Virus record (IMG/VR): IMGVR_UViG_3300048771_000229
Location: 1 to 36,620 of that record
Source of the DNA: a virus
Length of the DNA: 36,620 nt
Reading direction: 5' to 3' (one strand)
The notes beneath the pieces were generated by a model, which ran no database searches, had not been told where the DNA came from, and was given only the letters and a program-made list of their open reading frames with translations. The translations under genes were made by a program, and so were the position numbers. The stretch's first letter is position 1; every line of letters begins with the position of its first letter. Shown piece by piece: positions 1 through 33,481 of the stretch.

Positions 1-59
1 CCGCCGCGGCTCCCCGGCAGACATGCCCGCTGCGACAAGCAGCGGATCGGGACCCTTCG

Positions 60-1661
60 TTACGGCGGCTGTGCCGCCTCCGCCGGTTCGAGCTCGCCGG
101 CGATGCGGAATTCGATCGTCAGCGCCGTGCCGAAGACTTCCAAGCAGGCCGCTGCCAGTTGCGGACGGAAGTTAACGCGCAGCCAGTCGCGGAAAAAGCG
201 ATTCGGCGCGCACACCAGCAGCGTATCGCCGGCGCGCTCCATCACCGTCTCGCCGCCGCCGAACCAGAGATCGAAACGCTCGCGATCGGTGCGCGCCGCG
301 ATGGCCGTTTCCAAACGGGTCAGGGGTCTCCCCTGCTGCGGATTGGCCGCGGTTTCCGGGGTTTTTCTCACTTCGCGCGGAATCGCTGCCGGCAGGGCAG
401 TGGGGAGCGCGGCGAACAGTTGCGCCGCGCGGTGTTGGAACGGCGCCAGCAGTTTGCTCCACCAACGCTGCGCGCGCTCCTTGTCGTCGTCGTCCTCGAC
501 GCCGCACCACGGCGACACCTGGTTGCGCGCCGTACCGATCAGGTACTCTAGCGGTCGCGTGCTCGGCTTGCCGTGCGCACGGGTGCCGTCCAGTCCGACT
601 TTTGCATCGTGCGCGGCGCGCAACAGCCAGGCGACGTCGAGCAGCAACAGCGCCGCAGCCGCCAACCCGCGGAGTTGCCCGAGCGTCTTGTCGCTCGGCG
701 GCCGCTCGAACGCCAGTAACGACACCTGGCGGGCCAGCCGTTCGATCTCGCCGGCCGTGGCGGCGCGGTCGCGATCGTCGTCGTCGCGCATTTCGAGCCC
801 CGCCGCTGACGTATCCCCCTCCGACGCACGGTCCGTACTGTTAGTTGTTGTAGTATTACTACTACTAACATACAAACTAGTTTGAGCTAGCTCCAAGAGC
901 CTCGCGCGGCTCCTCCCCACTCTCAATAGGGAAGTCTGCTGACGTATTCCCCCGGTCGAGGGACCATACGTCAGCGGACTCCGGGGGGATACGTCAGTAG
1001 ATATAGTCTGCTGACGTATCCCCCCAGAAGATGCCGGAGTCTGCTGACGTATCCCTCCAGACGTGGAAATGCCCTGATCGTGGCGCGGATCGGGCTGCCC
1101 GTTAAAGTGATGTTCACGAGCTTGGGATGGCTCGGTCGGGCCCAGGGAACGAGACGGGCCGGCAGGGATATGCCGGCCCGTCTCTGCGGCCACCTCAGCA
1201 GCTTCCGTCGCGCGGGAAACCGCCGGCATGGTAGCCTGTATTTCCCCGGGGGCGGCCGCGGGAATGGTACGCCGCGTCAACCGCACCAGCGACGGCAGTC
1301 GCTTTCCCGAATTATCCCACCGCGGCTGGCTGCGAACAAGTACCCCGTCGCGGAGCCATTTTTTCACGGCCTCGCGGACGGCGTGCGCCGTCAGCGGTTC
1401 GCCTTCGCCGCACACCGTCACGTCGCCGCCGATGGCCTCGACGTCGTTGGCGACCCATTCGCAATGCGCGCCCTGTTCGAGAAACCACAGCAGCACGCGC
1501 GTTTCCGTCTTGGTGGCGTCGTAGATCGCCGCCAAATCCTTGATGGCGGCGACGCGCTCGCGGTGCAGGGCGGCCTGGTAGCGTTCCACGGCCAGGGCGT
1601 CGGCGTCCAGGCCCAACCAGAACTCTTCCATCGGCCGGGGCTCGTTTTGATCCTTGCGCAT
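60..1661 (-). CDS. Phage replication initiator-like protein with C-terminal DnaA domain I-like module
   Basis: The product is 533 residues from the ATG at 1661, which follows AAAGGAA by 9 bases. A GTG at 1685 overlapping the csrA stop is the alternative start. Residues about 30-115 read like a winged-helix DNA-binding domain. Residues 150-290 are low-complexity and cover DNA iterons. Residues about 447-520 closely resemble DnaA domain I, including the stretch CAPNRFFRDWLRVNF. In DnaA this domain contacts the DnaB helicase and other partners. By analogy with lambda O, the N-terminus probably binds the origin inside the gene and the C-terminus recruits the host replisome; both roles are inferred. 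There is no AAA+ ATPase domain. The gene is last in the csrA-initiator pair. Confidence 0.75.
   Translation of the reverse strand: MRKDQNEPRPMEEFWLGLDADALAVERYQAALHRERVAAIKDLAAIYDATKTETRVLLWFLEQGAHCEWVANDVEAIGGDVTVCGEGEPLTAHAVREAVKKWLRDGVLVRSQPRWDNSGKRLPSLVRLTRRTIPAAAPGEIQATMPAVSRATEAAEVAAETGRHIPAGPSRSLGPTEPSQAREHHFNGQPDPRHDQGISTSGGIRQQTPASSGGIRQQTISTDVSPRSPLTYGPSTGGIRQQTSLLRVGRSRARLLELAQTSLYVSSSNTTTTNSTDRASEGDTSAAGLEMRDDDDRDRAATAGEIERLARQVSLLAFERPPSDKTLGQLRGLAAAALLLLDVAWLLRAAHDAKVGLDGTRAHGKPSTRPLEYLIGTARNQVSPWCGVEDDDDKERAQRWWSKLLAPFQHRAAQLFAALPTALPAAIPREVRKTPETAANPQQGRPLTRLETAIAARTDRERFDLWFGGGETVMERAGDTLLVCAPNRFFRDWLRVNFRPQLAAACLEVFGTALTIEFRIAGELEPAEAAQPP
805..1058. repeat. Six iterons inside the initiator gene (putative replication origin)
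   Basis: The consensus is GTCTGCTGACGTATCCCCCC. Plus-strand copies lie at 805-820 (partial), 934-953, 1006-1025 and 1039-1058. Inverted copies lie at 965-980 and about 983-998. Because the copies differ in orientation and reading frame, the protein shows GGIRQQT for some and DVSP or PLTYG for others. This indicates conservation at the DNA level rather than as a peptide repeat. Iterons inside the initiator gene next to an AT-rich stretch is the lambda O/ori arrangement. Confidence 0.8.
835..892. other. AT-rich stretch between iterons (candidate DNA unwinding element)
   Basis: This run of about 58 bases is rich in A and T, with repeated TAGT/TACT steps, in an otherwise very GC-rich gene. It sits between the iteron at 805-820 and the main iteron cluster at 934-1058. 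It encodes a Ser/Thr/Asn-rich stretch with no evident fold, so the composition is better explained by DNA melting than by protein function. Lambda ori has the same iteron plus AT-rich layout. Confidence 0.6.
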
Positions 1662-1681
1662 CCTTGTCGATTCCTTTCCTA

Positions 1682-1897
1682 TCACGAGCCCAGCACGGCC
1701 ACGTCGGCAAGTTCCGCCGCTGCCAGTGCCCGCCTCGCCAACAGCTCGCCGCGCAGAATCTCCATGCTCTGGGGCGCGTTCACCAGCAGCCGGCAGCGAT
1801 CGCCGCCGAGGTGTACGACCTTTACCTCCGTCACATAGCCGCGGTCGTCGATCAAAAGAATCGTCTCGTTCATTCGTCTGGAGAGCACCAAACCCAT
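1682..1897 (-). CDS. csrA: CsrA-family RNA-binding translational regulator
   Basis: The product is 71 residues from the ATG at 1897, with GGAGG upstream. CsrA homodimers bind GGA motifs in mRNA leaders and usually block translation. The N-terminal strand (GLVLSRRMNETI) matches the canonical LILTRRVGE region. The strand LLVNAP and Arg49 in EILRGELLARR correspond to the VNAP core and Arg44 of Escherichia coli CsrA. The C-terminal tail is slightly longer than usual. The stop overlaps a GTG that could start the initiator gene. A hairpin with GGA in its loop at 6373-6392 is a candidate target. The family assignment is firm; targets are inferred. Confidence 0.9.
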   Translation of the reverse strand: MGLVLSRRMNETILLIDDRGYVTEVKVVHLGGDRCRLLVNAPQSMEILRGELLARRALAAAELADVAVLGS

Positions 1898-1987
1898 GTC
1901 GCAGTCCTCCGTGTTAACCGCGCCGTTGGCGACGCGACGGTGCATGAAACAGGAAAAAAATGTACGGATATACTTGCCGCCTTGCCG

Positions 1988-3166
1988 CTACTGCCGATAG
2001 TCCACCAGCTCGTACAGCTCGCGCAGCAGCCGCAGCGGCCGCTCCGTCTCCGCCGCCAGGGGCGCGGGCCATGCACAACCGGACACCTCCGGCAGTTGCC
2101 ATTGCTCCAACAGCGCCGGCAGCAATTCCAAGGTCGGCAAATAGTTGTTGAAGACCACATCGGCGCCGCCGCCGTGCCCCAGTTGCGCCCGCTCGGCGTC
2201 GGGATTTTTGGACCGCAACCAGGTCGCCAAGCGCTTTCGCATCTCCTGCTGCGGTTTGCTGACCGGGGCCGGTCCGCAGCGCTCCACGAGGTGATTCCAG
2301 GTCGAGCTGGTGTGCCGCCAGCCGAGGAGGCGGCCGCCGGTGAAGCCGAAGGTTTTTTGGCCGCGCAGTGCCGCGGCCACGCCCAGCGCCTGCGCCGAGC
2401 AATAGATGATCCGCGGCGTATTGGTTTTGGTCCGCCCCACCAACAGCCAAGAACCCTCCAGATCGTCCAGGTCGGCCCGCAGGGCCTCGCCGATCCGCAA
2501 GCCGGTCAGGAGCAGAAAACCTTGCAACAGCACCACCCGCCGCCGCTGCCCGGCCGTGGCAGGCTTGATGGCCTTGCCGCCGGGCCGCGGCACGGGTGCA
2601 TTGCCCGCTTCCAGATAGCGTTGCCACCAGGCCGCGATCTCCGCGGGCGTGCAGACGACCGAATAGCCCCGCTTGGTCCGCGGCCGTTCTTGTGGATCGA
2701 GGTCCGTAGGCAGACCCAAAAAACGCAGGATCGGCGCACCGTGCCGCCAAAAGCGGCCGATGGTGGCCTCCTTGCGTTTGGCGCAGCGGCGGACGGCCGC
2801 GGTCCCCCGCCCCGCCGCGCGATCGGCCAGAAATCGCGATACGTTTTGCGGGGAAAACGTTTTGGGCATACTCCAGGGCTTGGCCTGCCGCGGCGGCGTC
2901 GCCCGCAGCCAGCGCAGCCAACGCCGCCCCACGTCGTCGCCCAGTTCGCGCAGCGGCGCGTTGATCCCCAAAAATTCCAGCAGCGACCAGGCCGACTGCC
3001 GGTAGTCGATCGGCGTCCGCGGCGAGCCGCCGCGCTGGTCGAGTTCCACGAAAAACTCGGCGATGGCGTCGCCCAGCCGCGTCATGCCGGGGTCCGGTCC
3101 GGGCGCTTCTTTCGCCCTGATCCGCCGCTGTTCCGCCTGCCACGCCTGATACTTGCTCTCGCTCAT
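1988..3166 (-). CDS. int: Tyrosine recombinase (phage integrase), atypical box II
   Basis: The product is 392 residues from the ATG at 3166, with AGAGAGG about 9 bases upstream. An open frame continues to 3313 but lacks phage-integrase-like sequence. Residues 25-150 form a SAM-like core-binding region. Catalytic residues visible are Arg224 (TGLRIGEAL), Lys247 (GRTKTN), Arg310, His331 (LGHGG) and Tyr342 (FNNY). The box II motif HxxR reads QEMR, so its His is Gln307; other family members tolerate substitutions here. It would integrate and excise the element. The tRNA-like fragment at 7716-7762 is the best attachment-site candidate. Confidence 0.88.
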   Translation of the reverse strand: MSESKYQAWQAEQRRIRAKEAPGPDPGMTRLGDAIAEFFVELDQRGGSPRTPIDYRQSAWSLLEFLGINAPLRELGDDVGRRWLRWLRATPPRQAKPWSMPKTFSPQNVSRFLADRAAGRGTAAVRRCAKRKEATIGRFWRHGAPILRFLGLPTDLDPQERPRTKRGYSVVCTPAEIAAWWQRYLEAGNAPVPRPGGKAIKPATAGQRRRVVLLQGFLLLTGLRIGEALRADLDDLEGSWLLVGRTKTNTPRIIYCSAQALGVAAALRGQKTFGFTGGRLLGWRHTSSTWNHLVERCGPAPVSKPQQEMRKRLATWLRSKNPDAERAQLGHGGGADVVFNNYLPTLELLPALLEQWQLPEVSGCAWPAPLAAETERPLRLLRELYELVDYRQ

Positions 3167-3534
3167 GGTGCAAAACCTCTCTGCTGCAGGAGCGGACGGA
3201 TCGGCCCTGTGCCTGTGATGAATCGATCGCGTCCCTGACCATGATCCGGCCGCCTTTAGTCCAGAATAATCGCCCGCCGTGAAACTCCACGTCCAAAAGT
3301 GGGACCGCCGCAATGGGCTTCGACTCGCGCGGCGTTATGATCGTTGTCACCGTTTCGGACTCCAAAACGTGCTCAAAAAACCACGCTCCGCCGGGTGGCC
3401 GGCGAGAGCTTCGGATGTGTAGTCCGAAGCTCGCGCCCCTAGTGCCTTCGCGTCTTGGTGGTCAATTTTTCCCTCGCCCGCTCGCCGGGACGGATCGTCG
3501 GGACGTGCTGTTCGGCCCTGGCGCGCCTACCCTC
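3167..3534. other. 368-bp spacer upstream of the integrase, with hairpin
   Basis: I see no convincing gene. A perfect 10-bp stem (3406-3415 with 3423-3432, 7-base loop) lies downstream of the small-gene operon and could end its transcript, although no T-run follows. A fragment resembling the CACCAAGACGCGAAGG-type dispersed repeat lies near 3441-3461. No strong promoter for the integrase was found. A weak -10-like CATAAC lies near 3336. Confidence 0.5.
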
Positions 3535-3711
3535 TTACACGTCCCATTCGTAGCACTGCCGCGCCGAGTGCAAAACGTCCTCGGCCTCCTTGATGGCCTG
3601 CTCGTGCAGCCAGGGATTGCGGATCGTGCCGGCCAGTTCCTCGGCGGCGCGGGCGTACTGTTCCGCCGCGGCGGCGATCCGCTCGGCGAATTGCTGCTGG
3701 TTCGGCGTCAC
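3535..3711 (-). CDS. Small helical protein, paralogous to the N-terminus of the 4898-5557 product
   Basis: The product is 58 residues from a GTG at 3711. The start overlaps the preceding stop (GTGA) and follows AAAGGAGG by 6 bases. It begins MTPNQQQFAERIAAAAEQYA, which is nearly identical to residues 2-21 of the 219-residue protein encoded at 4898-5557 (TPNQQQYAERIAAAAEQYA), and similarity continues through ARAAEELA. The rest (NPWLHEQAIKEAEDVLHSARQCYEWDV) is helical and charged. It is the last gene of the operon. Function is unknown. Confidence 0.75.
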   Translation of the reverse strand: MTPNQQQFAERIAAAAEQYARAAEELAGTIRNPWLHEQAIKEAEDVLHSARQCYEWDV

Positions 3712-4067
3712 GCTGCACCTCCTTTATCGGTGGCTTCGGTGGTCTCTCGGGCCGCCCTGTTCGCCGCGCAAAGGGCGTTGTGCGCCGCGTAGAGCCGCTG
3801 CAGCGCGTCGCCCGTGGGGTGCCCGTAGCCGAAATCCCCTGGGGCCCCGAGGTGTTTGTACGCGGTCAAGAGATTCCCGAGTTCCTCGTGAAGCTTCCGC
3901 CCCGGATCGCCCGCGGCCGCGCGAAGGTCCAGAAGGGCGACCCAAAACCGCGGCGAGAGATCCCGCAGTTTCCGCCGCTCTTTCGGGTTCTCGAAAACGT
4001 CGGCACACTTCCGGATCGCCTCGCGCAGGGCCGTCTCGGCCCGCTCGACTGACTGCTGTTGGCTCAC
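3708..4067 (-). CDS. Hypothetical protein of the small-gene operon
   Basis: The product is 119 residues from a GTG at 4067, preceded by AAAGGAGG and overlapping the preceding stop by 4 bases. It is predicted mostly helical and contains FWVALLDLRAAAGDP and a Tyr/His-rich stretch near residues 68-92. Its last residues (TTEATDKGGAA) are encoded by a dispersed-repeat relative whose AAAGGAGG end is the ribosome-binding site of the next gene. No family was recognised. Confidence 0.75.
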   Translation of the reverse strand: MSQQQSVERAETALREAIRKCADVFENPKERRKLRDLSPRFWVALLDLRAAAGDPGRKLHEELGNLLTAYKHLGAPGDFGYGHPTGDALQRLYAAHNALCAANRAARETTEATDKGGAA

Positions 4068-4456
4068 GCTCCACCTCCTTTCTCTGTGCTCTCGGTGCCC
4101 TCGGTGGCTTTCTTCCCTTCCGCCTGGTCGATGGCGGCGTCGATCAGCTTCAGGGCCGCTTCCATCTCGTCGTCCTGCGCGCGGGGGCCGCGGGCCCAGC
4201 CCAGGTCCTGGACCGCCTTGGCGGCCGCCAGCAGCCGCGGCGCCGCGGCTAGCAGGGCGAAAACCTTCTGGCCGCCAAGGAAGCGCGGCAACACGCTAAG
4301 ATATTCGCACCCCACCTGGTCGACCAGGGTCAACTGCCGGACGGTGCGATGAAGCGTCGCCCGCCACGACCAGGCCGCGGGTATTTCGAGATCCTTCCCG
4401 GCCACCAGGCGGTGCGCCGCATCGCGTAGTTTCGATCCGTGTCTATCCGTGTTCAT
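4064..4456 (-). CDS. Hypothetical protein starting inside a dispersed repeat
   Basis: The product is 130 residues. The ATG at 4456 lies inside a family A repeat, so the protein begins MNTDRHG. The gene overlaps the upstream gene by 14 bases. The C-terminus ATEGTESTEKGGGA is read from a family B repeat whose AAAGGAGG end serves the next gene. The middle is helical (LLAAAPRLLAAAKAVQDLGW). No family was recognised. Both ends of the protein derive from repeat DNA. Confidence 0.7.
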   Translation of the reverse strand: MNTDRHGSKLRDAAHRLVAGKDLEIPAAWSWRATLHRTVRQLTLVDQVGCEYLSVLPRFLGGQKVFALLAAAPRLLAAAKAVQDLGWARGPRAQDDEMEAALKLIDAAIDQAEGKKATEGTESTEKGGGA

Positions 4457-4491
4457 CGGTGGCTACCTCCTTTCTCGGTGCCCTCTGTGCC
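4435..4491. repeat. Family A plus family B repeats joining two genes
   Basis: A family A copy (4435-4464) is followed at once by family B-like TCGGTGCCCTCTGTGCC (4475-4491). Between them lies AGGAGGT on the minus strand, used as the ribosome-binding site of the 4064-4456 gene. The other family A copies are at 15211-15230, 17451-17482, 20338-20368, 21052-21081, 23351-23381, 25187-25217 and 25540-25570. Confidence 0.75.
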
Positions 4492-6154: not shown

Positions 6155-6375
6155 ATCCCCGCTCCCTTCCACACAACACGCGACACGCCCACTCGACACC
6201 GTGCGAGGCCGCGCCCTCGCGGCCTGCGGTCGGCTCTGCTGTCGCGGAGTCGGCGGCTCGATGCGCGGTGATGTACTGACCCTTGGATCGGTGCGTCATT
6301 TGGCGTGTTGCGTGTTTGCGCGGTCGGCCAGGGGAGCGGAGAACATGCCCGAGCATGGGCGCGCGAAGAAGACAT
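6151..6375 (-). CDS. Arg-rich 74-aa protein, first gene of the leftward operon
   Basis: The frame has no recognisable family and is very rich in Arg and Ser. It is supported by a perfect AAGGAG 6 bases before the ATG at 6375 and by a 4-base ATGA overlap with the next gene, the coupling used throughout this operon. The Shine-Dalgarno sequence and start codon lie in a hairpin (6373-6392). It may act as a leader peptide for translational coupling rather than as a functional protein. A frame at 6117-6356 overlaps it without such signals. Confidence 0.5.
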   Translation of the reverse strand: MSSSRAHARACSPLPWPTAQTRNTPNDAPIQGSVHHRASSRRLRDSRADRRPRGRGLARCRVGVSRVVWKGAGI

Positions 6376-10708: not shown

Positions 10709-10741
10709 CTCTGTGGCCTCTGTGCCCTCGGTGGCTGATCC
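10709..10741. repeat. Family B repeat between fibre-module genes
   Basis: On the minus strand it reads GGATCAGCCACCGAGGGCAC then AGAGGCCACAGAG. A nearly identical copy is at 12242-12274, and related coding copies are at 4073-4110 and 35078-35109. Confidence 0.75.
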
Positions 10742-12282: not shown

Positions 12283-13788
12283 TTACTCGGCCAGCGGCGC
12301 GAGGATGGTGGCCGTCCCTTGCGGGATGGGCGTCACCGTGTCGCCGCCGGAGGTGGTCAGCGTCAGGGCGTAGCTCTGGTCGCCTGTCGAAGCGCTGCGG
12401 GCCATGGTGGCCGTCTGGGTGTGCGTGGGCTGGAAACGCATGATTTGCGGGCTGCTGCCGGCGACGATCGCGCCGGTGGTCAGATCGAGCTGGGGGGCCG
12501 CGTCGTCGCCGCTCTGGCGGATGGTGAGGCGCCCGCTGGCGATCGCGGCCGGCCAGGTGCCCGGGTCCACAAAGTCCAGCGCGCGGCCATCGGCGGCCTT
12601 GTAGTCGTCGCCGATCACCAGGGTGATGCTGCCCGTGGTGGGGTCGATCGGCAACAGCGATGCCAGGGCGGCCAGGCCGAGCGAGCCGACCGCGCTGTCA
12701 GTGGGGACGCCGTAGAGGACCTGGTTGGGCGCGGGGACCGCCAGTGTGCCGGTGGTGGCGTCGACGCCGGTCCCCTGTCGCACGTCGCCCGCCGCGGGTA
12801 CCACGCAGGAACCCAAGATGCCGTCGCCCGTGTCGACGCCCGAACGGACGTCGGTCGCCGCGGGCACGCCCGGCGCCCAGGTGCCGGTGATGCCGCCGAT
12901 GGTGACGGCCATCCTGACGTTGCCGGCCAGCAGGTTCGCGAGATTCAGCGTGGGCTCGACCTCGTTGCCGGGGTAGCCGAACGCGCCGGCCGCGGTGCTC
13001 ACCAGGTCCGCCGCCGGCAACGCGATCGTGGACGGATCGACGCCGGCATAGGTGCCCACGACCGCGGCGATCGTGACGCCGCTGCGAACGTTGCCGGCGG
13101 CGAGATTCGTGAGGTCCAAGGTCGGCGTGAGGCTATGGCCGGGGTAGCCGAACGCGCCGGCCGCGGTGCTCACCAGGTCCGCCGCCGGCAACGCGATCGT
13201 GGACGGATCGACGCCGCCGCCGAGCGTATTGGGAAAGCCGGGGTCGACGTCACCGGAGCCGGTGATCTCGACGCCATCGATCCACAGCACGCCGCTCTGA
13301 AGCCAAAAACCGCCGCTGATCGTGCCCCAGTTGGCGAAGTCAGCGCCGGTGAAAATTCCGCCGCTGATCGTGCCGTAGTTGGCGAAGTCAGCGCCGGTGA
13401 AAATTCCGCCGCTGATCGTGCCGGAGTTGGTGAAGTCAGCGCCGGTGAAAATTCCGCCGCTGATCGTGCCGGAGTTGGTGAAGTCAGCGCCGGTGAAGGT
13501 GCCACCGCTGATCGTGCCGCCGCCGTTGTCGATGCCAATGCCGCTGAACGTGCCGCCGCTGATCGTGGCGTAGTTGATGTGTAAACCGAAGATATCGCAG
13601 GCTCCGCTGCCGAGGTTGACTGTCACCGTTCCGAGGAACAGGTCGCCGCTTTCTCCCGTGGCCAGCGTGCAGGAGTCGCCCTCGGCCGGTAGCGCGCCGT
13701 GGTTGACGGTCGCGGCGGCGTCCTCGAACCAGTTGGCGGTGTTTTCCCACGCCCCATCGGTCGCGGCGTTTTTCCAGTAGAGCAGCAT
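12283..13788 (-). CDS. Repeat-rich tail fibre/appendage protein
   Basis: The product is 501 residues from the ATG at 13788, with GAGGA 6 bases upstream. Residues 91-160 are tandem 16-residue units GTISGGIFTGADFTNS, a beta-solenoid or pentapeptide-like shaft. Two near-identical ~57-residue units begin GVDPSTIALPAADLVSTAAG at residues 192 and 249 and end with NVRSGVTI-type motifs common in tail fibres. The C-terminal 120 residues look globular. Copy number of both repeats is likely to vary and could change fibre length. Confidence 0.78.
   Translation of the reverse strand: MLLYWKNAATDGAWENTANWFEDAAATVNHGALPAEGDSCTLATGESGDLFLGTVTVNLGSGACDIFGLHINYATISGGTFSGIGIDNGGGTISGGTFTGADFTNSGTISGGIFTGADFTNSGTISGGIFTGADFANYGTISGGIFTGADFANWGTISGGFWLQSGVLWIDGVEITGSGDVDPGFPNTLGGGVDPSTIALPAADLVSTAAGAFGYPGHSLTPTLDLTNLAAGNVRSGVTIAAVVGTYAGVDPSTIALPAADLVSTAAGAFGYPGNEVEPTLNLANLLAGNVRMAVTIGGITGTWAPGVPAATDVRSGVDTGDGILGSCVVPAAGDVRQGTGVDATTGTLAVPAPNQVLYGVPTDSAVGSLGLAALASLLPIDPTTGSITLVIGDDYKAADGRALDFVDPGTWPAAIASGRLTIRQSGDDAAPQLDLTTGAIVAGSSPQIMRFQPTHTQTATMARSASTGDQSYALTLTTSGGDTVTPIPQGTATILAPLAE
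12967..13216. repeat. Pair of 79-bp identical direct repeats in the fibre gene
   Basis: 12967-13045 and 13138-13216 are identical, 171 bp apart, and mark two copies of a larger 57-residue unit. Identity at the DNA level implies recent duplication or gene conversion. Confidence 0.8.
13309..13518. repeat. 48-bp tandem repeats in the fibre gene
   Basis: Four full units of 48 bp, plus degenerate flanking ones, encode GTISGGIFTGADFTNS/ANY/ANW. Units differ mainly in the last few codons. This is a coding tandem repeat, not a CRISPR array: there are no unique spacers. Confidence 0.85.
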
Positions 13789-30315: not shown

Positions 30316-30936
30316 TTATTCCCAAGTCCACCAGGCCGGCGACGCGGTGACGACGGTCCAGGCGCCGCCGCCGCACCCGCGCCAGATGTGCAAAAACTCC
30401 CCGCGCGGCAGACTGTTGACGCCGGGCGTGTTATTGTCTATCCAGAAAGCGCGACGATCGGCGAATCCCAGGAACGTGACGGCATGGTCGCGCGGCTGGT
30501 TGATGCGCCAATAGATGGCCGCGGGACGGCCGTTGTCGGAACACCGGTCCAGAAATGCCGCATCGCCGGCGACGGTGAATTCGTAGGGGAGGCCCCGGCG
30601 ATCAGCCAACTCATTGATGGCGGCGATCGGCCGCGAGCGCTGTTGCGGGTCGAGCAGCGCCGGCCCGGAAAAGTGCGCGCGCCAGTAGGCGGCTTCGGCC
30701 TGCAAACCGTTGTAGGCCAGCACGTCTTCCACGGCACAGAACAGGCACGATCCCGCGCCCGCGGGACTGACGTAATTGCCGTGCTGCTGGGCGCAGGTGA
30801 AAGAAGTCGCCGGCGAGAGCTTTTGCTCGTCGTCGCAGCCGGCCAGAATAACCGCTGCCAGGCAAGCGGCGATCATTGCGGCCGAAACTCGGCCGCATCG
30901 CTCGCGGACGCTGCTGGCGTTTTCGCGCGTTTTCAT
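30316..30936 (-). CDS. Papain-like (C39-like) cysteine peptidase lipoprotein
   Basis: The product is 206 residues from the ATG at 30936, overlapping the upstream stop (ATGA). Residues 20-34 end in the lipobox LAGC with Cys34 as the lipidated residue. Cys64 in AGAGSCLFCAV, His151 in RDHAVTFLGF and Asn168/169 in FWIDNNTPG form a papain-type triad; the second domain pattern resembles C39-like peptidases. It would act at the outer side of a membrane. A role in lysis, or in host-surface modification during lysogeny, is inferred. Confidence 0.75.
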   Translation of the reverse strand: MKTRENASSVRERCGRVSAAMIAACLAAVILAGCDDEQKLSPATSFTCAQQHGNYVSPAGAGSCLFCAVEDVLAYNGLQAEAAYWRAHFSGPALLDPQQRSRPIAAINELADRRGLPYEFTVAGDAAFLDRCSDNGRPAAIYWRINQPRDHAVTFLGFADRRAFWIDNNTPGVNSLPRGEFLHIWRGCGGGAWTVVTASPAWWTWE

Positions 30937-32551: not shown

Positions 32552-33481
32552 ATGGCCGCGATTGCTTTCGGGTCCGGGGCTTTGCAAGACGGCCCCGCGA
32601 CGTCCACCGGGTACCATCCGTCTCCCTCCGCGTGCCAGCCGGCCGGCGCGGCCGCATCCCCCGCGCCGGTCGGCCCCTTGGCGCCGTTCCCCGATGAGCC
32701 CGTACGGACCTGGACCACGATCGATCAGCTTCCCGCCGGCGGCGTGCCCTATGCGAAGGGCGCCGGCAGCTACCGCGCCCCGGGCACCGGCGAACTCTGC
32801 CGCCAGGCCCGCCACGCGATGGCGATGGCTGCACCGGCGAAGACGGCGGCGGCGGCGCAAACGCTGTCCGCGCCAAGCCCGAAGACGTCCTCGCCGCTCA
32901 GCCTCGACCTTTTGCTGCGGCAGTGGCGGCTCGCCGATCGCCGCAGCGGTCACAGCACCGTTTATCTCGGGCTGCTCGCCTATCGCTGGCTGAAGGCGGC
33001 GGTCGACCGACCGGCGGCCCTGGCAGAGCTGAAAACCCGCTTGGCCGCGGACGGCTTCCGCGGCGAACGACTCAAGATTCACCGCTACATCGGCTGTTAC
33101 TGGGTCGGGCGACTTTTCTCCGCCGACCAGAAAATAGGCCAGGCCGGCCAGGAGCATCCCGCCGAGATGGTTGGGACCTCGATCCTTCGCACCTTGATTC
33201 CGCTCTGCCGCCGCGATCCGCGAACGGAGAAGTGGACCATCCGCGCGCAGTGCCACGACGAGGCGCTGCTTCTTTGGGGACGGATCCTCGCTGGGCGGCC
33301 CACGATCGCGGCCGTGGCGGCCGAGGTGGCCCGCATCCGGCCGCCGCACATCGCCGCGAGCAAGACGCCGCCCAAGTCGCTGAAGAAGCTCCTGCGCGTG
33401 CTCAGTCGCCTGGGCGAGCCCGAGGCCGCCCAGGCCCTGGCCGTGCTCGAGCAGCGACTGGAGAAGCTGCGGGCGGCGTAG
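32552..33481 (+). CDS. Hypothetical protein, lone plus-strand gene (309 aa)
   Basis: The ATG at 32552 follows GGAGGG by 6 bases. Residues 1-115 are Pro/Ala-rich and probably disordered. Residues 118-309 are helical and basic (LRQWRLADRRSGHSTVYLGL, ERLKIHRYIGCYWVGRLFSA, SLKKLLRVLSRLGEPEA), suggesting a DNA-binding or replication-associated domain. It reads against all neighbours and converges on the exonuclease gene across a hairpin. No family was recognised, so no function is assigned. The minus strand over the same DNA is also open but composition favours this strand. Confidence 0.72.
   Translation: MAAIAFGSGALQDGPATSTGYHPSPSACQPAGAAASPAPVGPLAPFPDEPVRTWTTIDQLPAGGVPYAKGAGSYRAPGTGELCRQARHAMAMAAPAKTAAAAQTLSAPSPKTSSPLSLDLLLRQWRLADRRSGHSTVYLGLLAYRWLKAAVDRPAALAELKTRLAADGFRGERLKIHRYIGCYWVGRLFSADQKIGQAGQEHPAEMVGTSILRTLIPLCRRDPRTEKWTIRAQCHDEALLLWGRILAGRPTIAAVAAEVARIRPPHIAASKTPPKSLKKLLRVLSRLGEPEAAQALAVLEQRLEKLRAA

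Follow-up and report, generated by a model that had tools for sequence, protein, structure and literature searches.

In lambdoid phages, the central part of gene O contains the origin, made up of four to six iterons and an AT-rich tract (PMC7466680). In the Rickettsia plasmid pRAM18, the C-terminal 75 residues of the initiator are similar to the first 65 residues of E. coli DnaA, and the plasmid fragment sufficient for replication includes this DnaA-like C-terminus (PMC3328469). The REP regions of P. yeei, including that of the dnaA-like pYEE2, are functional in Alphaproteobacteria (PMC6209633). Plasmid replicons of Rickettsia and of Rhodobacterales that carry the domain I module replicate autonomously (PMC3328469, PMC6209633). 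In E. coli, domain I of DnaA binds the helicase DnaB, with Glu21 and Phe46 being important residues; E. coli is the only species in which this contact has been shown, and in B. subtilis it was not seen (PMC5448010).

Here we describe a locus in the IMG/VR virus record IMGVR_UViG_3300048771_000229 that joins features of both systems. The window, namely the whole stretch of DNA analysed, spans 36,620 bp. We propose that positions 801–1058 are probably the origin of a planctomycete phage, placed within its own initiator gene, and that the DnaA domain I at the tail of the initiator recruits the host helicase.

Overall features of the phage

The window encodes a lambda-type portal, a GP7-like capsid protein and a GpA-type terminase, together with an integrase, a CsrA-like protein and a 5'-3' exonuclease (family searches), and therefore belongs to a temperate tailed phage. 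It has no terminal repeats and thus may be incomplete. The relatives of the portal (38–70% identity) reside on short contigs without the initiator, and our searches found no relatives of the neighbouring integrase.

Several other elements were observed along the window. A minus-strand ORF at 12283–13788 has a weak pentapeptide-repeat match and a 48-bp tandem repeat of 5.5 copies (array 13310–13576), and a second minus-strand ORF at 30933–31526 matches a PHROG named enoyl-CoA hydratase/carnitine racemase-like, of the category moron. In addition, a ACCTCCTTTCTCNGTGCYCTCNGTGCC-like repeat occurs in three spaced copies (3717–3743, 4073–4099 and 4465–4491), and CTCTGTG motifs are found elsewhere at 10709 and 12242.

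The initiator possesses a C-terminal DnaA domain I

The initiator gene and its surroundings consist of the following features:

Positions 60–1685, minus strand: initiator (rep) gene, 541 codons from the GTG at 1685
Positions 1251–1661, minus strand: N-terminal region, presumed to bind DNA, without a family match
Positions 96–314, minus strand: DnaA domain I module (residues about 458–530), recognized by Pfam, sequence and predicted fold
Positions 1682–1945, minus strand: CsrA-like gene (family match), directly upstream and overlapping the GTG start of the initiator

The ATG at 1661, which has an AAGGA-like Shine-Dalgarno sequence upstream, appears the more likely start and would give a protein of 533 codons. 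The only Pfam family matched by the initiator is DnaA_N, at residues 465–513 of 541 (25.5 bits, above the curated cut-off of 24.6), and no PHROG was matched. A profile built with planctomycete DnaAs matches the solved structures of DnaA domain I (PDB sequence searches). The AlphaFold model of the domain, with a mean pLDDT of 85, resembles B. subtilis DnaA domain I at a Foldseek E of 2e-5; further matches are the DnaAs of E. coli and H. pylori, and the helicase loader DciA is a weaker one. The first-pass annotation had recognized a DnaA domain I-like module at this C-terminus, and Pfam, AlphaFold and Foldseek bear this out. With domain I near its C-terminus and no Pfam match to an AAA+ domain or DnaA domain IV, the protein resembles in this respect the "DnaA-like" initiators of mobile replicons.

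Sequence comparison showed that the domain shares up to 51–54% identity with planctomycete DnaA and 33% with E. coli DnaA; some of the planctomycete DnaAs were retrieved with the initiator's own peptides, and those retrieved by Pfam only still reach 44–49%. In a poorly resolved domain I tree of 82 columns, the phage domain is grouped with planctomycete DnaA, and neither with E. coli DnaA nor with the contig L110 described below. Domain I was apparently taken from the DnaA of a planctomycete, and it points to a planctomycete host, since planctomycete DnaAs are its nearest relatives. In an alignment inspected by eye, the position of E. coli Glu21 is occupied by an Arg, with a Glu one residue before it, whereas Phe46 is kept.

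A winged helix was looked for in the N-terminal half, which is presumably the DNA-binding part of the initiator; Pfam searches at E up to 10 returned no family, and NCBIfam no HTH. AlphaFold gave no usable full-length model (pLDDT 35), and a very low-confidence model of the N-terminal region has a helix followed by two strands; hhalign of this region reached 0.5% probability. Of the weak N-terminal matches, the traceable ones proved to be transporters and a kinase. No homologues of the initiator, as a whole protein or in parts, were found in IMG/VR, in phage and plasmid records, or in 392 genomes of the phylum and 297 of the order.

The motif ACARGGATG, which we take to be the CsrA site consensus, occurs once in the window against 0.21 expected by chance. 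This single copy, at 1659–1667, covers the likely ATG of the initiator; together with the overlapping CsrA-like gene, it suggests that the phage CsrA may exert translational control of the initiator.

Six iterons within the initiator gene

Six copies of an about 20-bp site are clustered at 801–1058 within the 541-codon minus-strand gene; two of them are inverted relative to the other four. Their register and mismatches, counted against GTCTGCTGACGTATCCCCCC, are as follows:

Positions 801–820, plus strand: iteron 1, 4 mismatches, with degenerate flanks and an exact core
Positions 934–953, plus strand: iteron 2, 1 mismatch
Positions 960–979, minus strand: iteron 3, inverted, 4 mismatches, with a degenerate C-run and an exact core
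Positions 983–1002, minus strand: iteron 4, inverted, 2 mismatches
Positions 1006–1025, plus strand: iteron 5, consensus, 0 mismatches
Positions 1039–1058, plus strand: iteron 6, 1 mismatch

The centres of the iterons are spaced by 133, 26, 23, 23 and 33 bp. All six share the exact 9-mer core CTGACGTAT, which is absent from the rest of the window. At up to three mismatches, four copies of the iteron are present, compared to 0.01 expected by chance. Moreover, in 2,000 synonymous shuffles that held the protein and codon usage fixed, the core appeared zero to three times per shuffled gene and never six times. Searches of IMG/VR with the iteron gave scattered single matches and no cluster.

Further analysis revealed that the iterons occupy three codon phases in addition to two orientations, and encode four kinds of peptide: GGIRQQT (three times), EGDTSAA, SPLTYGP and ISTDVSPR. 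The peptide is therefore not what is conserved; selection acts on the DNA, at the iterons as well as at the AT-rich stretch. The earlier count of six copies in both orientations and different frames was correct, with the sites at 801–820 and 960–979 being degenerate outside the core, and its reading of the different frames as selection on DNA gains support from the synonymous shuffles and the four peptide readings.

The AT-rich stretch adjoining the iterons

Two features are located between iteron 1 and the remaining five iterons:

Positions 835–894: AT-rich 60-mer, presumed DNA unwinding element, the least stable 60-mer of the window
Positions 856–867, minus strand: DnaA-trio-like run TAGTAGTAGTAA, the only run of at least three TA[GA] units in the window

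The 60-mer has a stability of -70.3 kcal/mol, compared to a mean of -95.1 kcal/mol (s.d. 5.4) for the 60-mers of the window. The segment 835–892, which the first-pass annotation had singled out as AT-rich, indeed contains 67% AT against 34% for the window. None of 5,000 synonymous shuffles reached the AT content of 835–894, so that codon choice alone does not explain it.

Iterons of many replicons also act in copy control, and the repeats might accordingly be an autoregulatory operator, or an incompatibility or partition site of the initiator, instead of an origin. We consider this quite unlikely, given that the repeats sit deep inside the coding sequence and adjoin the least stable DNA of the window, that no sigma-70-like promoter was found in 1–3600, and that the scanned ORFs include no ParA/ParB-like protein.

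The trio-like run bears on how the same origin would be opened. Domain I of the initiator could contact domain I of the host DnaA, which would then open the AT-rich stretch via TAG TAG TAG TAA and load the helicase. Domain I is known to mediate the self-association of DnaA (PMC5448010), the run resembles the DnaA-trio consensus 3'-GAT-5' (PMC8287927), and a four-unit run arose in only 3 of 5,000 synonymous shuffles. However, trios are expected at most 16 bp from a DnaA box (PMC8287927), and within 781–1088 no sequence comes closer to the DnaA box TTATCCACA than three mismatches; the run can also come from the Ser-Ser-Ser-Asn codons AGT AGT AGT AAT. The function of the run is doubtful because no DnaA box is within reach, and a chromosomal DnaA/basal unwinding system at this site was demoted for the missing box. 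Opening of the origin by host DnaA therefore seems rather unlikely.

A switch in GC skew near 900, put forward in the first-pass annotation as a check on the origin, is absent from the cumulative skew, whose clear extremes, a minimum at 6,218 and a peak at 32,592, are far from the candidate origin. GC skew thus failed as an origin marker, as it does not switch at the iteron site.

Proposed mechanism of replication initiation

Altogether, the presence of an origin in the initiator gene is well supported, and the best reading of the locus is a theta origin laid out like lambda O/ori, in which a host-derived DnaA domain I would recruit the host replisome. That the initiator binds the iterons and melts the stretch, that the segment is active as an origin and that the helicase is recruited are steps that we infer. 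Through its N-terminal half, the initiator would assemble on the six iterons into a nucleoprotein complex, which in turn would melt the adjoining AT-rich stretch. Next, the DnaA domain I at the C-terminus would bring in the host replicative helicase, either directly or via host factors, and a phage helicase loader would not be needed.

A family scan of the 78 other ORFs of the window detected the 5'-3' exonuclease and structural genes, and no helicase, loader, primase or polymerase. The phage may thus depend on the host replisome, which fits the domain I tail; a helicase or loader gene could nevertheless lie outside the window, because the window may be incomplete. A phage protein that keeps domain I without the ATPase and DNA-box-binding domains represents a natural separation-of-function experiment. 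In addition, replicating vectors for Planctomycetota could draw on the locus as a compact candidate origin.

A phage-like contig with the same layout

Across the 297 order and 392 phylum genomes, the DnaA_N scan yielded chromosomal DnaA, and among the short or odd DnaA_N frames in the matches listed and examined, only one was not DnaA. It belongs to L110 (G576:C2), a phage-like contig of 46% GC that is unrelated to the window and was found among the genomes of one planctomycete order. A search of phage records with E. coli DnaA domain I gave chromosomal-type dnaA in some of them and weak matches in unannotated fragments.

In L110, a winged-helix ORF comes first; four to five iterons of the type GGACA-TTTTGTCC follow, then an AT-rich tract among the least stable 1% of the contig, and finally a DnaA domain I (43 bits). 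The two loci share the in-gene iterons, the AT-rich tract, DnaA domain I and their order, with a winged helix forming the N-terminus in L110. They differ in that the iterons of L110 are unrelated in sequence and its domain I is not of the planctomycete type. Owing to these differences, the layout of an in-gene origin with domain I may have arisen more than once. Within its iteron region, the initiator-like gene of L110 (L110:5249-6387) breaks into two overlapping frames, as a result of mutation, assembly error or programmed frameshifting.

The prophage protein YfdR makes contact with DnaA domain I (PMC5448010), and by analogy the initiator could be a decoy that titrates host initiation factors via its DnaA domain I, the repeats being incidental or regulating the gene. 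This is highly improbable, as it leaves unexplained both the iterons with an unwinding-like tract inside the gene and the same layout in L110.

Beyond the in-gene origin with a helicase-recruiting tail that we favour for the window, we tentatively raise the possibility that phage initiators have, repeatedly and independently, taken up host DnaA domain I, which would serve behind an in-gene origin as an exchangeable tail for recruiting the helicase. If this is true, the tail would track the host lineage, whereas the DNA-binding half and the iterons would evolve together; the window would be the planctomycete version and L110 another.

Comparison with lambda and plasmid initiators

The window resembles the origins of lambda (O/ori-lambda) and the Stx phages, the latter with six iterons (PMC7466680), in having its iterons and AT-rich tract in the central part of the initiator gene. 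The first-pass annotation had stated that the layout copies lambda O/ori; this holds for the iterons and AT-rich tract within the gene, but the initiator is not of the lambda O family by sequence. Compared to lambda, the initiator matches no Pfam or PHROG phage replication family, two of its six iterons are inverted, and its C-terminus is DnaA domain I. Moreover, no P-like or DnaC-like helicase loader was detected among the 78 further ORFs of the window, which may be incomplete.

The replicases of the Rhodobacterales plasmids pDSM14862_b and pDSM14862_d (pYEE2 replicon type) are likewise short initiators with a C-terminal DnaA domain I (26.8 and 28.7 bits, respectively), and give weak HTH matches at their own N-termini. 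They differ from the phage initiator in their length of about 220 aa and in the partition genes carried by the plasmids. Both replicase genes examined lack an in-gene iteron array, and their N-terminal parts share no detectable similarity with that of the phage initiator. The pRAM18 initiator also has a C-terminal domain I, and its remaining ~700 aa contain no conserved domains as published (PMC3328469). In the open-access literature, we found no description of an in-gene origin together with a DnaA domain I tail. DnaA domain I is known at the C-terminus of initiators from Rickettsia and Rhodobacterales plasmids, and what appears to be new in the phage is the combination of such a tail with an origin inside the initiator gene.
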